A program made the translations under genes and the position numbers. From an uncultured Oscillochloris sp. (lineage in GTDB: Bacteria > Chloroflexota > Chloroflexia > Chloroflexales > Chloroflexaceae), in assembly GCA_903920315.1 (NCBI GenBank), contig CAIXLU010000012.1:1-41763 (forward strand): a stretch of 41,763 bases of DNA, given 5' to 3'. This document shows positions 31,087 through 37,753 of the stretch, piece after piece (within the stretch, counting starts at the first letter, position 1; the number at the start of each line of letters is the position of its first letter). Under the pieces are notes generated by a model. The model saw nothing but the letters and a program-made list of their open reading frames with translations, made no database searches and was not told the DNA's origin.

Positions 31087-32610
31087 TTACCCAACTTGCC
31101 CCGGTGGCATACTCAACTCGCTATGGCGCTGCTGGGCGGCGTGATAGTGCTTGAGCAAGGCGAGGGTGTCATTCAAGTTCTTCTCCTTCTCGCCGCGCTT
31201 GAAGGCAACCTGGTAATCATTGATCTTTTGTACCACATCACGTGGGCGAGGGACGTGGTGGAAGTTAAACTTCCCGCCGCTGCCTGCCGTCTCCAGTACC
31301 ACATTGCCATAGCCGAGCAGGTTGCTGACGAATGTGGTCTCGAAGGCGATATTCGTGATGGCACCAAGGCTGGCTTGGCGGCGATCCTCGGGGCCAAAGG
31401 GCTTCTTCTCAATATCAATCACGTTGGTAGGGCTGAGGATGTACATGTCGTTGCGGTGATCCTCAATCTCCCATGCCGACCATGCCGTCACGGCGATAAC
31501 TAGACTTGCCAAGACAACGGCAAGCAGGACTGGTGCAGGTTGGAACAGGCGAGTGCCGATGGCAATCACCAGCAAGCTGCCAAAGAGCAGCAATGCAGGC
31601 CCGATCAGGGCGCGCAGCATAAAGATCCAGTGCGAGTGCCAGGTGATCGTGCCGTTATCCTCGTTGATCTCGGGGTTCTCGTGGAAGAGCCAGCCAAACA
31701 TTTTCGCGCCGTGCGAGGTCTTGATGTCTTTCCTAAAAACCCGCTTCTCACCCTTGGCATCGTAGACTCTGGTCTCGATCATGCGGTCAAACTCTTCCGC
31801 CGTGCGCTGCTTACGAACAGAGTTCACCAGATCCATGATCTTCTTCTGCATCTCCCTGGGGTTCGCGGCCTCCGTAAAGGTGATCTGTCCACCGATGCGC
31901 GCCGACTTGATGACCACCACGCCATAGCCAAGCCAGTGCTGGCTATAGGTCTTTGTGGAGGCAAGCACATCTTGGACATCTTCAATATAGATCTGTTCTT
32001 GCATGCGTCGCTCGATCAGACGTGGAATCAAGACCTCGTCATTATCGTAGACAATGCGCTTATTGGTGAGGATCAGCTCATCATTCATCCAATCGTAGGT
32101 CGTAAAGAGGACGGAGAGCAGACTGATCACTGTCAAGACCATGAGTCCGATATTGACCATATCGAAAGATTGGCCAACAAACATCACCGGGTCAATATAA
32201 AAGAGTCGTCCGCCGTTATAGCGAAAGTAGATTACCAGCGCGATCACCGCACCGATCCCTACGAGGATATTGCGCGTCCGCAGATCTTCCTTTTTGGGCT
32301 TCTTCTTGCCCGTGGTGCGTACCCACAGGGATGTCCAGAGCAGCAGCAACAGCATCTCGACGCCGATCAAGATCCAGTTAATCGGATCGAAACCGACCTT
32401 CTCGCCCGTTTCGGCCACAATGAATCCGCCCCCGAAACCACGGTAGATGGCGGTGCCGGCAAAGAGCAGAAGGCAGATCAGCGGCAGAATCAGACGATTC
32501 ACCAGGGCAATCCAATGCCGCCCGGTCACGTGCAGGATCTCCTCGCCCTCGCTCAGATCGATCGACTCGGATGCCTCCTCAAGCAGCAGACCTTTGAGAA
32601 AATTCAGCAT
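31087..32610 (-). CDS. Membrane protein with two bacterial PH (DUF304-like) domains
   Basis: This is a 508-residue protein. It begins with a cytoplasmic acidic stretch (ESIDLSEGEEILHVTGRH), has two pairs of membrane helices in each half, and each half carries a bPH2-type domain: the first is LTNKRIVYDND...IEDVQDVLASTKTYS...GYGVVVIKSAR, and the second is ILSPTNVIDIEKKPFGPEDRRQASLGAITNIAFE...LGYGNVVLETAGSGG. Such proteins (YdbS/YdbT-like) are membrane-associated with no defined biochemical role. The start at 32610 (MLNFLKG) has GGAG 10 bases upstream; the longer frame from 32724 overlaps cmk and is rejected. It is 16 bp after cmk, so probably co-transcribed. Confidence 0.82.
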   Translation of the reverse strand: MLNFLKGLLLEEASESIDLSEGEEILHVTGRHWIALVNRLILPLICLLLFAGTAIYRGFGGGFIVAETGEKVGFDPINWILIGVEMLLLLLWTSLWVRTTGKKKPKKEDLRTRNILVGIGAVIALVIYFRYNGGRLFYIDPVMFVGQSFDMVNIGLMVLTVISLLSVLFTTYDWMNDELILTNKRIVYDNDEVLIPRLIERRMQEQIYIEDVQDVLASTKTYSQHWLGYGVVVIKSARIGGQITFTEAANPREMQKKIMDLVNSVRKQRTAEEFDRMIETRVYDAKGEKRVFRKDIKTSHGAKMFGWLFHENPEINEDNGTITWHSHWIFMLRALIGPALLLFGSLLVIAIGTRLFQPAPVLLAVVLASLVIAVTAWSAWEIEDHRNDMYILSPTNVIDIEKKPFGPEDRRQASLGAITNIAFETTFVSNLLGYGNVVLETAGSGGKFNFHHVPRPRDVVQKINDYQVAFKRGEKEKNLNDTLALLKHYHAAQQRHSELSMPPGQVG

Positions 32611-32626
32611 ACGTTGGCTCCTGAAG

Positions 32627-33331
32627 CTACCGTGGGGGGATGAGGGAATGGGCCTCTCCTGAACCACTCCTGCCGATAAAGTCAATGATCCAGTTGACCT
32701 CAGCCTCAGGCGAGAGACCATCATTTTTGAGTATCACCGCATCATCGGCGGGACGAAGCACGTGCTGATCCATGGTATCGCGGAGGGCCATCGCGGAGCG
32801 AATCTCATCAAGGGGACGCGAGTCGTCGTGATGCTCACGTTCATCGGCGCGGCGGCGAGCGCGTTCGTCAAGGGTCGCCTCAAGATAGATTTTGAGCGCG
32901 GCGTCGGGCATCACCACCGTGCCAATATCACGCCCGACCATCACCACCCGGTTGCGGTGGCCAATAGCCTGCTGCTGGCGGATCATCTCGCGGCGAACGC
33001 CGGGGTAGCGGGCAACGGTTGAAACGCCGCACTCAACCTCGGGGCTACGGATGGCCCAGGTGACGTCGGTGCCATCAGCGAGGACGGTGTACTGACGGCC
33101 ATCGTCTGCGGAGGGCGGGATTACCTCAATCACAATCTGTTGAGCCAGGCGCTCGACCGCATCAGAGGCGGCGAGATCAATCCCCGACTGGAGGGCGGCG
33201 AGAGTGAGGGCGCGGTACATCACACCCGTGTCAAAATAGAGGTAGCCAAGACGGTTGGCCAGTAATGCGCCGAGCGTACTTTTTCCGGCTCCTGCGGGGC
33301 CATCGATCGCAATAACAAGCGGTTTTTGCAT
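32627..33331 (-). CDS. cmk: Cytidylate kinase
   Basis: This is a 234-residue NMP kinase that phosphorylates CMP/dCMP with ATP. Seen: the P-loop IDGPAGAGKST (K17), YFDTGVMYRALTLAAL (the CMP-binding start), MVGRDIGTVVMPDAALKIYL, and the LID region DERARRRADER followed by DSRPLDEIRSAMALRDTMD. Length is normal for bacterial Cmk. The start at 33331 (MQKPLVIAIDGPAG) fits the family's N-terminus; 48 codons of upstream open frame are not needed. In many bacteria cmk is followed by rpsA or plsC, but here it is followed by the PH-domain membrane protein. Confidence 0.95.
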   Translation of the reverse strand: MQKPLVIAIDGPAGAGKSTLGALLANRLGYLYFDTGVMYRALTLAALQSGIDLAASDAVERLAQQIVIEVIPPSADDGRQYTVLADGTDVTWAIRSPEVECGVSTVARYPGVRREMIRQQQAIGHRNRVVMVGRDIGTVVMPDAALKIYLEATLDERARRRADEREHHDDSRPLDEIRSAMALRDTMDQHVLRPADDAVILKNDGLSPEAEVNWIIDFIGRSGSGEAHSLIPPR

Positions 33332-33682: not shown

Positions 33683-36600
33683 ATGCGAAAACTCCTTGCC
33701 CATCTGCCCTATCAGATAGCCACCGATCTCCTCGGTGGTGCCAACGACCTTGTCGGGCGCACATGCCGTGATGACGCGGTGACTCTCTTTGCCGATGTTT
33801 CGGGCTTTACGCCGATGAGCGAGGCGCTGAGCCGCTTTGGGCAGGATGGCACCGAGGATCTGACCAGCCTGCTCAACGACTACTTTGCGGTGATGATCGA
33901 TCTGATCGCCTCCTATGGCGGGGTGGTGGTCTCTTTCGGCGGCGACTCGCTGACTGCTCTCTTCTACGTGAAGGACGATGCGAGTCCGAGCGAGATCGCC
34001 GCACGCGCCATCCGCTGCGCCCTCGATATGCAGATCCTCATGCATCCCTACCACAATATCCAGACGCGGGCCGGACAGTTTAGCCTAGAGATCAAGATCG
34101 GCTTGGCCCGTGGCCCCGTCCTCTCTACGGTCGTCGGCGACCCAGAAGTGCGCCTCCAGAGCGTGATCGCGGGCCTGCCGCTAGAGCAGGCCGCCGAGGC
34201 CGAGCATGTGGCAAAGGTCGGTGATGTGGTTGTCCACCGCGATCTGATCGCCCTCGCCCCCAGCATTCTGACTCTTGCTGATATGCACGGCGACTACCGG
34301 CTGGTTTCTGCGCTGAGTGAGCAACCTTCCTACGCGCCACTGCCCCCGCTGCCCGCCGCCTCCGAGAGTTTGCTTGCTACCCTTACCGCATTTGTCCACC
34401 CGCTGCTGGTTCACCGGCTGCTCGACGGGCAAATGGGCTTTGTGAATGAACATCGCAGTGTGACCGTCCTCTTTGTGGGATTCAGCGGGTTTGACTACGA
34501 TGGCGATCCGCATGTGGGCGACCGACTCCAGGCATATATTGTTCAGGTGGCGCGGATCGTGCAGCAGTACGATGGCGACGTGAACAAGATTGACATGGGC
34601 GACAAGGGCAGCAAGCTGGTGCTGGTTTTTGGCGCACCCATTGGCCACGAGAATGATGCTGAGCGGGCCATGCGCTGCGCCCTGGGGTTGCGTGAGCTGA
34701 AGGTTGAGCATGATGAACAGACGACGTTCAGCATCCGCATTGGCATTGCCTCAGGACTCGTCTACTGCGGACTGGTGGGCGCGGAGATCCGTCGCGAGTA
34801 CACGGTGATGGGTGATACGGTGAATCTGGCGGCCAGGCTGATGCAGACCGCCGTGCCGGGCGAGATTATCGCGGCCAGCGGCGCGCATCGCCCGGTGGCC
34901 GACCGGTTTCTCTGGACGGCGCTCAAAGCGCTCTCGGTGAAGGGCCGCTCGCGAGTCGTTCCGGTTTACCGGCTAGAGCAGGAGCAGCAGCGGGCCAGCC
35001 GTCATCAGGAGCCGTCGTACAAACTGCCAATGGTGGGGCGCGAGGAGGAGATGCAAGTAGCCGAACGGCATCTGCATCTGGCGAGGAGCGGGCGCGGCCA
35101 GGTGGTCGGTATCTGCGCCGAAGCGGGGATGGGCAAATCGCGCCTGGTGGCCGAAGTCATCCGCATGGCAGCGCGAGGCGATATGGTGGTTCACTCCGGC
35201 GAGTGTCTGTCGTACGGTGACAGTATTAGCTACCTGCCATGGAACAGCCTGCTGCTTGGCCTCTTCGGCATTGATCCAACCTGGGATCACGATGTTCAGA
35301 TCGAGCATCTACGCCAGCAGATCGCCTTCCTCTGCCCGCAGGCCCTGCGGCGACTGCCGATCCTGGCCGGGGCGATGAATCTGCCGGTTGATGAAACAGA
35401 GCAGACCCACGCTCTTGATGCACGGGTGCGCAAGGATGTACTAGAAACGACCGTCCTGGAGTGTCTGCGCACCATTGCCGTTGCTCGCGGGCCGAATACC
35501 GGGGTGCTGCTGGTAATCGAGGATTGCCACTGGATTGACCCGCTTTCGCACGATCTGCTTGACGTGGTGGCACGCGGCATTGGTCATCTGCCGGTGATGC
35601 TCCTGCTGGCCTATCGCCCGCACGAGCATGAGCATACTCGGCTGCGCGTATCGCGGCTGCCGCACTTCCGCGAGTTGCTGCTGCGCGAGTTCAGCCTGCG
35701 CGAGACCGAGTGGCTGATTGGGCTGAAGTTCGGTTATCTCTTCGGTGCCCGTGGGGTGCTGCCGGCGAGCTTTGTTGAGCGGATTACCACGCGCTCGCAG
35801 GGCAACCCTTTCTACATTGACCAGATGATTAGCTACATCCAGGATCAGGGAATCAACCCCGCCGACACCCACGCGCTGTCACTGGTGCGCCTGCCCAACA
35901 GCCTCCGCTCGCTGATCATCAGCCGGATTGATCGGCTCAGCGAGCAGGAACAGATTACACTGAAGGTAGCCAGCGTCCTCGGTCGAGTCTTTCGGGCCAG
36001 TTGGCTGTGGGGAATCTACCCGCAGATCGGTCATCCCGACCAAGTGCAAGCCAATCTCGACCGGCTCAGCAACCTCGATCTGACACCGATGGAGAAGGCT
36101 GAACCCGAGTTGGAGTACCTGTTCAAGCACATGACGACGCAGGAGGTGGCCTACGAGAGCCTGGCCTACGCGACACGTGCGATGTTGCACGAGCAGGTGG
36201 GCGACTATATCGAGCGCCACTTTGCGAGTGAGGTTGATCGCTACCTCGACATGCTGGCCTACCATTACGGGCGCAGCGAGAATCTGGATCGTCAGCGGCA
36301 CTATTTTAGATTAGCGGGCGATGCCGCCTACGCCGCCTACGCCAACGAAACCGCAATCAGCTACTACCGACGCCTGCTGCCGCTGCTTGAGCCTCCGCAA
36401 CAGATGACGGTGATGCTACGAATTGGCGAGGTTCTCCAGCTTGTTGGGCGCTGGGCCGAGGCCGAGTCATCCTTCGAAATGGCACAGGCCATCGCCGCCG
36501 CCGATGGCAATGCGACTGGCGTGGCCCGCTGTCAGAATGTCACCGCCGAACTGCTGGCCGCTCGCGGCAATTACGAGGAGGCCATAGCCATTCTCGATCT

Positions 36601-37753
36601 GGCTATCCCGGCATGGGATCGCCTGGGGGATCTGGCGGGACACTACGAGGCCCTGCGCATCTTCGGCACGATCATGATTGACACGGGAGCCTATACACGC
36701 GGCCTGCGTTCGATTGAACACGCCCACGAACTCGCTGTGCGTCTGGATGACCAAGCTCTGATCGCCCGCTCGATCGGCGCAATGGGCGTGGTCTATATTG
36801 ACATTAGCGACTATGAGATGGCTCTCTATTGTCTGGAGCGCAGCGCAGCGATGGCGGCGAGCGTGCGTGATTGGGGTTTGCTGGCACGATCACGCGAGAA
36901 CATCGGCTCGATCTACCTGAACCAAAGCCGCATTGTGAATGCTCTAGAGATTTTTCACGATCTGCTATTGCGTGCGGTAGAGATCAGCGACCGCTGGGCG
37001 CTGGCTCGGCTGAGTCACGAAATTGGCCGCGCCCACACGCTCTATGGCGAGGTGGGTGTAGGCATGGAATGTTATGCTCGTCAGATCGCGATTGCCCTGA
37101 ACCTTGGGGAGCGGCGGGATCTGGCGATTGGCCTGGGCCACCTGGCCTACGCCTACGCCCGTGTCGGCGAGTACCGTATGGCCGAGCGGGTGAGCGACCT
37201 GGCAATCACCCTCTGCGACTCGATCAAACTGGCCTATTGGGGGTGTGAGTTTCGCTACGAGTACGCACTGCTACGGGTAGCTCAGGGGCGCTATGCCGAT
37301 GCGTCGGCCCTGAACGACGTGGCACTCCAGACAGCGCGGCAACTGGGCAGCAACAAGGCCGTGCAACTCCACGCAACGCTCCTTGCGGCGCGACTGCGGG
37401 TGCTGCTCGGTGCGGAGGATTCTGTTGCGGCGATTACGGCGGTTGCTGCGCTAGACGAGGATTGGTACGACGAGGATGAGCGTGCGGCGATCCACTACAC
37501 GATCTGGCAGATTGACCCGCGCCGTGAGGCTGATCGACACGCCGCCCGATCACTCTATGCCTCGCTCGCCATCACCCGGCCCACCGCCCTTAGTCGCGCC
37601 CGCGCCGCTCGACTCTGCGGTGCGCTCCCGCCGCCGGTGGCCCCGCTGCCGTCACTTCCGACGGCGATTGATGCTGGTGCTGCGCCCAGTTTGGCCACGC
37701 TGATTGCGCAGGCTGAGCAGATAGTGCCAGCAAGAATGAAGGATGAGGGATGA
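33683..37753 (+). CDS. Soluble adenylyl cyclase-like protein: two class III cyclase domains, AAA-type ATPase, TPR
   Basis: This 1356-residue protein has the same order as mammalian soluble adenylyl cyclase. Cyclase domain 1 (~30-200) has both metal Asps (FAD38VSGF, FGGD88S) but Ser84 in the Lys position, and its NxxxR segment is lost (SVIAGLPLEQAAEAE). Domain 2 (~255-430) lacks the first metal Asp (FVG266FSGF) but keeps the purine Lys (INK302IDMGDKG), EYTVMGDTVN381LAAR385 and the VYCGLVG segment. Together they could make one active site. An NTPase follows, with VGREEE, P-loop AEAGMGKS (479-486) and Walker B VLLVIEDCHWID (~608-619), and then about 500 residues of TPR-like helices. Expected product is cAMP; the ATPase/TPR part probably senses a ligand or partner. 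The stop codon lies in a heptamer array. No RBS of good match is seen before ATG 33683. Confidence 0.88.
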   Translation: MRKLLAHLPYQIATDLLGGANDLVGRTCRDDAVTLFADVSGFTPMSEALSRFGQDGTEDLTSLLNDYFAVMIDLIASYGGVVVSFGGDSLTALFYVKDDASPSEIAARAIRCALDMQILMHPYHNIQTRAGQFSLEIKIGLARGPVLSTVVGDPEVRLQSVIAGLPLEQAAEAEHVAKVGDVVVHRDLIALAPSILTLADMHGDYRLVSALSEQPSYAPLPPLPAASESLLATLTAFVHPLLVHRLLDGQMGFVNEHRSVTVLFVGFSGFDYDGDPHVGDRLQAYIVQVARIVQQYDGDVNKIDMGDKGSKLVLVFGAPIGHENDAERAMRCALGLRELKVEHDEQTTFSIRIGIASGLVYCGLVGAEIRREYTVMGDTVNLAARLMQTAVPGEIIAASGAHRPVADRFLWTALKALSVKGRSRVVPVYRLEQEQQRASRHQEPSYKLPMVGREEEMQVAERHLHLARSGRGQVVGICAEAGMGKSRLVAEVIRMAARGDMVVHSGECLSYGDSISYLPWNSLLLGLFGIDPTWDHDVQIEHLRQQIAFLCPQALRRLPILAGAMNLPVDETEQTHALDARVRKDVLETTVLECLRTIAVARGPNTGVLLVIEDCHWIDPLSHDLLDVVARGIGHLPVMLLLAYRPHEHEHTRLRVSRLPHFRELLLREFSLRETEWLIGLKFGYLFGARGVLPASFVERITTRSQGNPFYIDQMISYIQDQGINPADTHALSLVRLPNSLRSLIISRIDRLSEQEQITLKVASVLGRVFRASWLWGIYPQIGHPDQVQANLDRLSNLDLTPMEKAEPELEYLFKHMTTQEVAYESLAYATRAMLHEQVGDYIERHFASEVDRYLDMLAYHYGRSENLDRQRHYFRLAGDAAYAAYANETAISYYRRLLPLLEPPQQMTVMLRIGEVLQLVGRWAEAESSFEMAQAIAAADGNATGVARCQNVTAELLAARGNYEEAIAILDLAIPAWDRLGDLAGHYEALRIFGTIMIDTGAYTRGLRSIEHAHELAVRLDDQALIARSIGAMGVVYIDISDYEMALYCLERSAAMAASVRDWGLLARSRENIGSIYLNQSRIVNALEIFHDLLLRAVEISDRWALARLSHEIGRAHTLYGEVGVGMECYARQIAIALNLGERRDLAIGLGHLAYAYARVGEYRMAERVSDLAITLCDSIKLAYWGCEFRYEYALLRVAQGRYADASALNDVALQTARQLGSNKAVQLHATLLAARLRVLLGAEDSVAAITAVAALDEDWYDEDERAAIHYTIWQIDPRREADRHAARSLYASLAITRPTALSRARAARLCGALPPPVAPLPSLPTAIDAGAAPSLATLIAQAEQIVPARMKDEG

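Follow-up and report, generated by a model that had tools for sequence, protein, structure and literature searches.

Does a bacterial protein carry both the full layout and the split active site of mammalian soluble adenylyl cyclase (sAC, ADCY10), and would it be controlled as the human enzyme is? The question was raised by an open reading frame in a window of 41,763 nucleotides (the whole stretch of DNA that was analysed) from an Oscillochloris-like, green filamentous member of the Chloroflexales with a genome of 5.5 Mb in 716 contigs, for which a preliminary description had claimed the complete ADCY10 layout, with the ATPase and TPR parts following the cyclase domains in the same order. The encoded protein, P0001, was confirmed as a bacterial sAC-type (ADCY10-like) protein. 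The claimed layout was borne out by the order of Pfam domains, a PDB sequence match and the fold, and the order of ATPase and TPR parts by Pfam and a second model, of the C-terminal half.

Layout and fold of P0001

The reading frame is free of stops and begins at an ATG common to orthologues of 72–87% identity; the closest named orthologues are from Oscillochloris spp. (71–87% identity). Comparison with orthologues gave an overall dN/dS of 0.12–0.16, that is, purifying selection, on all domains; constraint was tightest in the middle of the protein and, in most comparisons, loosest in the TPR part. Pfam assigned two Guanylate_cyc domains, followed by AAA_16 and TPR_12, and the presence of both class III cyclase domains (C1 and C2) in a single chain was established from Pfam, the PDB sequence match and an AlphaFold2 model. 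Coordinates of all features are collected in table 1.

Table 1. Features of P0001 and their positions in the window; human sAC equivalents are given in parentheses.
Feature	Position	Strand	Basis or remark
sAC-like tandem class III cyclase/STAND ATPase/TPR protein P0001	33683..37753	+	1356 aa
Cyclase domain C1, residues 27–212	33761..34318	+	C1-alone match to human sAC C1, E 3.7e-18; model strands and helices
D38, metal ligand (D47)	33794..33796	+	alignment; D in 88/88 covered rows
S84, in place of bicarbonate residue (K95)	33932..33934	+	alignment
D88, metal ligand (D99)	33944..33946	+	alignment; D in 89/89 covered rows
K138, pyrophosphate contact (K144)	34094..34096	+	alignment; invariant in alignment A1
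A171, in place of bicarbonate switch (R176)	34193..34195	+	alignment; Arg in 0 of 91 rows
Cyclase domain C2, residues 252–435	34436..34987	+	Pfam PF00211 256–425; human sAC C2 match
K302, base recognition (K334)	34586..34588	+	alignment
T374, base recognition (T405)	34802..34804	+	alignment
N381, catalytic (N412)	34823..34825	+	alignment; N in 90/91 rows
R385, alpha-phosphate contact (R416)	34835..34837	+	alignment; R in 89/91 rows
P-loop ATPase, STAND type (AAA_16, residues 450–635)	35030..35587	+	Pfam; top Foldseek match 6mfv
Walker A AEAGMGKS (479–486)	35117..35140	+	G482, G484, K485 invariant in alignment A2
Walker B VLLVIED (608–614)	35504..35524	+	sequence
TPR-like helical repeat superhelix, about residues 868–1298	36284..37576	+	TPR_12; regular helix pairs in model, pLDDT mostly 85–97

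The cyclase half was modelled with AlphaFold2 from residues 1–436 and 27 related sequences, without ligand or metals, giving a pLDDT of 93.5 and a pTM of 0.92. When this model was searched with Foldseek, the best 24 PDB matches were all human sAC (TM about 0.83), which superposed on both cyclase domains at once. Alignment to 4clk with VIA-align gave Z 44.4 at 2.2 Å over 415 residues, and the runners-up to human sAC were AC9 (Z 38) and single-domain cyclases (Z about 23 or less). A PDB sequence search returned human sAC at E 4.6e-42 and the next structure at only 7.8e-19; by sequence and by fold, ADCY10 was thus the closest solved structure, ahead of transmembrane (tmAC) and single-domain cyclases. 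The match of the model to human sAC over both domains together supports the earlier reading of C1 and C2 as a pseudoheterodimer.

The C-terminal 920 residues were modelled with a pLDDT of 88.9. The best Foldseek match of this half was 6mfv, a STAND protein with TPRs (E 1.1e-12, TM 0.41 by query length), and other matches were Apaf-1, Avs3 and 8bob, a complex of a maltose-system regulator. Searching the PDB by sequence with the ATPase region gave no match, and STAND relatives were found by fold search alone. As modelled, and with its Walker A and B motifs, the C-terminal half agrees with the description of a STAND NTPase, in which a P-loop module is followed by a repeat sensor.

The split active site and its proposed operation

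Human residue numbers were taken from the PDB alignment of P0001 with human sAC. The residues assigned earlier (D38 and D88 in C1; K302, T374, N381 and R385 in C2) were all correct, and the assignment was refined, since C2 also keeps D307, the equivalent of human D339, and has G266 at its first metal position. The human counterpart of K138 contacts pyrophosphate (PMC12867704). On this alignment, one ATP site would be split exactly between C1 (D38, D88, K138) and C2 (K302, T374, N381, R385).

Relatives fetched for comparison, which are no census of bacteria, gave 91 bacterial tandem rows after redundant copies were removed, mostly from Chloroflexota with some from Acidobacteriota, Delongbacteria and others. 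Both metal Asps of C1 were present in every covered row, and Asp occupied the first metal position of C2 in none. The catalytic Asn and Arg of C2 were kept in all but one and two rows, respectively, K302 in 67 and T374 in 77. Because this asymmetry persists across the 91 rows, the split site was taken as a family trait and not a chance reading; the pattern described earlier held on alignment with ADCY10 and bacterial homologues.

P0001 is probably an sAC-type adenylyl cyclase with one split ATP site, gated by its STAND/TPR half. It would be specific for ATP and catalytically active: C1 and C2 of one chain would fold onto each other to form a single site, to which C1 would supply both metal Asps and the Lys that contacts pyrophosphate, and C2 the adenine-selecting Lys and Thr and the catalytic Asn and Arg. 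The STAND ATPase and TPR superhelix may serve as sensor and gate of the cyclase, such that binding of a ligand or partner to the TPRs, coupled to the nucleotide state of the P-loop, would relieve inhibition and raise cAMP. CRP-type regulators would then read the cAMP; the host genome holds 16 cNMP-binding domains. Gating by a STAND domain is unproven even in human sAC, where such a domain is predicted in the full-length form, the activity of which lies below that of the truncated form, and where nucleotides were without isoform-specific effect (PMC12802110).

It is unlikely that P0001 is instead a cyclase that has lost catalysis and is retained by a STAND sensor for regulation or for binding nucleotides. 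In favour are 6yii, an AC-like protein that binds ATP and has a similar fold, and the broken or altered sites of some paralogues, such as that on host contig C80 (E at K302, H at R385); P0001, however, has all the human sAC catalytic residues tested, and its C1 and C2 are strongly constrained. At least 15 tandem cyclase proteins were found in the host genome, P0001 being one of about 15, and with so many present, some with altered sites, a given paralogue could be a non-catalytic regulator.

Variants were noticed among the tandem sequences. Seven host paralogues, L075, L076, L077, L078, L079, L081 and L089 (contigs C287, C460, C333, C571, C442, C263 and C676, respectively), retain the metal Asps together with Asn and Arg, but the base-selecting Lys is replaced by Gln (by Ser in one) and the Thr by Gly (by Ser in one), within the motif LLQxxxGDKGSY ... 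RTYGxLGD; an altered nucleotide choice is possible for these. In L088 (host C80) and L130 (genome G045), Glu replaces the Lys, and the catalytic Arg is His or Leu; judged by these replacements, both are likely to be inactive or different. L084, L086 and L127, which form a subfamily, retain the full catalytic set, but their C2 loop reads MYTHGDKL instead of GDKG, and their cyclase region contains some additional residues. On contig C287 of the host (G000), a protein with two cNMP-binding domains (a 484-residue open frame) is encoded about 20 kb from the Q/G-type tandem cyclase.

Bicarbonate residues and control

The preliminary description had S84 standing for human K95 and saw no Arg at the R176 place. 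The PDB alignment agreed on both counts, placing A171 at the second position, and P0001 has neither of the mammalian-type bicarbonate residues. Among the 91 bacterial tandem rows, the K95 place is occupied by Lys in 44 rows and by Ser in 13, and Arg was found at the R176 place in none. In human sAC, bicarbonate releases R176 from its pairing with D99 (PMC12250328). Because R176 is A171 in P0001 and the Arg is missing in all 91 rows, the human Arg switch cannot operate as such, and bicarbonate control of this type is predicted to be absent from P0001. In non-mammalian animals, one or both of K95 and R176 are mostly replaced, and the sAC of sea urchin and salmon responds to pH instead of bicarbonate (PMC12867704).

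That P0001 is nevertheless a bicarbonate sensor of the human type, in which HCO3− frees the second metal Asp from the Arg switch, appears improbable. Its fold is that of human sAC, and a Chloroflexus sAC-like cyclase is reported to be stimulated by bicarbonate (Kobayashi 2004, as cited in the review PMC11006738); against this stand the two replacements in P0001 and the lack of the Arg throughout the bacterial rows, as well as the finding that in animals loss of either residue accompanies loss of bicarbonate control (PMC12867704).

A Chloroflexus enzyme is part of the basis for regarding the activation of sAC by bicarbonate as ancient. Three tandem Chloroflexus proteins were reportedly described by Kobayashi, Buck and Levin in 2004. 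Genome G045 (5,258,541 bp), which we take to be that of C. aurantiacus J-10-fl, encodes four tandem proteins, in which the K95/R176 places are K/A, K/A, K/G and T/A. If the enzyme tested in 2004 is among them, it responds to bicarbonate without using R176. We tentatively propose that the Arg switch is absent from bacterial tandem sACs overall and arose within the eukaryotes; the response of bacterial enzymes, the reported Chloroflexus one among them, would then be of another kind, to pH directly or via the STAND/TPR half, and switch-based sensing would not be ancestral. The missing Arg in the bacterial relatives examined fits a report of 2026, according to which pH probably controls most sACs of non-mammalian animals, and the bicarbonate response of the reported Chloroflexus enzyme is the part open to direct test.

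Neighbourhood, origin and known systems

Matches to P0001 were present in all 41 genomes examined of the host's taxonomic family and, at E 1e-30 or better, in 31 of 151 genomes drawn across its phylum; more distant relatives (25–32% identity) occur in Acidobacteriota and Delongbacteria. The neighbours of P0001 are a cytidylate kinase gene, an HHH/ComEA-like gene, a TIM-barrel AP-endonuclease-like gene and a response regulator gene. The HHH/ComEA-like and TIM-barrel genes also come after the orthologue at three loci (L044, L045 and L047), and cmk was not found upstream of the orthologues within the stretches examined. In a further reading frame of the window (31087–32724), between a DUF7408-like gene and the cytidylate kinase gene, the sole Pfam match is to a bacterial PH domain, close to the C-terminus.

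The product of P0001 is very unlikely to be another cyclic nucleotide, such as cGMP: the title of reference 39 in PMC6660944 describes the sAC homologue of Dictyostelium as a guanylyl cyclase, but K302/T374, the pair that selects the base, is the same as in human sAC. It is highly improbable, too, that P0001 is an anti-phage sensor in which a Pycsar-type cyclase output is gated by an Avs/STAND module. PADLOC PycC models match its cyclase domains and the fold search with its STAND half also listed Avs3, but PycC matches are expected from any class III cyclase, and membership of PycC was rejected, as no Pycsar effector gene was recognised among the Pfam-annotated neighbours.

The origin of the tandem was examined in a domain tree of 28 C1 and 28 C2 sequences that included the human pair, with ADCY10 as the sole eukaryotic sequence. 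All C1s, the human one among them, split from all C2s at 100/100, and C1 of P0001 alone found human C1 (E about 4e-18) with no significant match to human C2. Forcing human C1 together with human C2 made the tree 45.6 log units worse (AU p 0.0015), and an independent duplication of the human pair was rejected under the model used. Human sAC, which forms a long branch, may lie either inside or beside the bacterial family: placing the bacterial C2s, or the bacterial C1s, as one side of a branch was not rejected (AU p 0.073 and 0.39, respectively). Among 89 bacterial rows P0001 scored highest against human C1–C2, by a small margin and with a score that is not a measure of kinship. Tree and fold show that the human C1–C2 pair and the bacterial tandem descend from one duplication. 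A separate bacterial origin of the tandem, with convergence accounting for its likeness to ADCY10, is extremely unlikely in view of the 100/100 split and the AU result, even with a tandem C1–C2 arrangement found in mammalian tmACs too.

The architecture of P0001 is not new in kind, being already documented for bacterial sACs: sAC-like proteins with a P-loop domain are in the literature (Kobayashi 2004 and Roelofs 2002, as cited in PMC11006738, PMC3085406 and PMC6660944). What is added here is the survey of the bicarbonate residues, with R176 lacking in all 91 bacterial rows. Chloroflexus aurantiacus belongs to the same taxonomic order as the host, and its sAC-like cyclases, like P0001, combine a tandem cyclase with a long C-terminal region; the four tandem proteins of G045 are only 34–38% identical to P0001 over the cyclase half and belong to other subfamilies of the tree. 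The TOMM system kinase/cyclase fusion family TIGR03903, in which a cyclase precedes the same ATPase region, matches residues 287–896 (E 2.7e-62), but was rejected as an assignment, with 211 bits against a cut-off of 705.75 and no kinase found by Pfam. 6mfv and Apaf-1 resemble the C-terminal half in joining a P-loop ATPase to repeats, whereas they contain no cyclase and identity is near 14%. The membrane adenylyl cyclases AC9, AC8 and AC5 have a like C1–C2 pseudoheterodimer (Z 31–38), but score lower in sequence and fold, have membrane spans and lack a STAND/TPR half. ADCY10 (PDB 4clf, 4clk and others) shares with P0001 the C1–C2 order, the split site residue for residue, the fold over both domains (Z 44) and a P-loop/STAND region after C2, the last assigned in P0001 from AAA_16 and fold and predicted in the literature for full-length human sAC, which also has a putative haem domain; the two differ in having 27% identity over the structural alignment, and in K95 and R176 of ADCY10, which are S84 and A171 in P0001.
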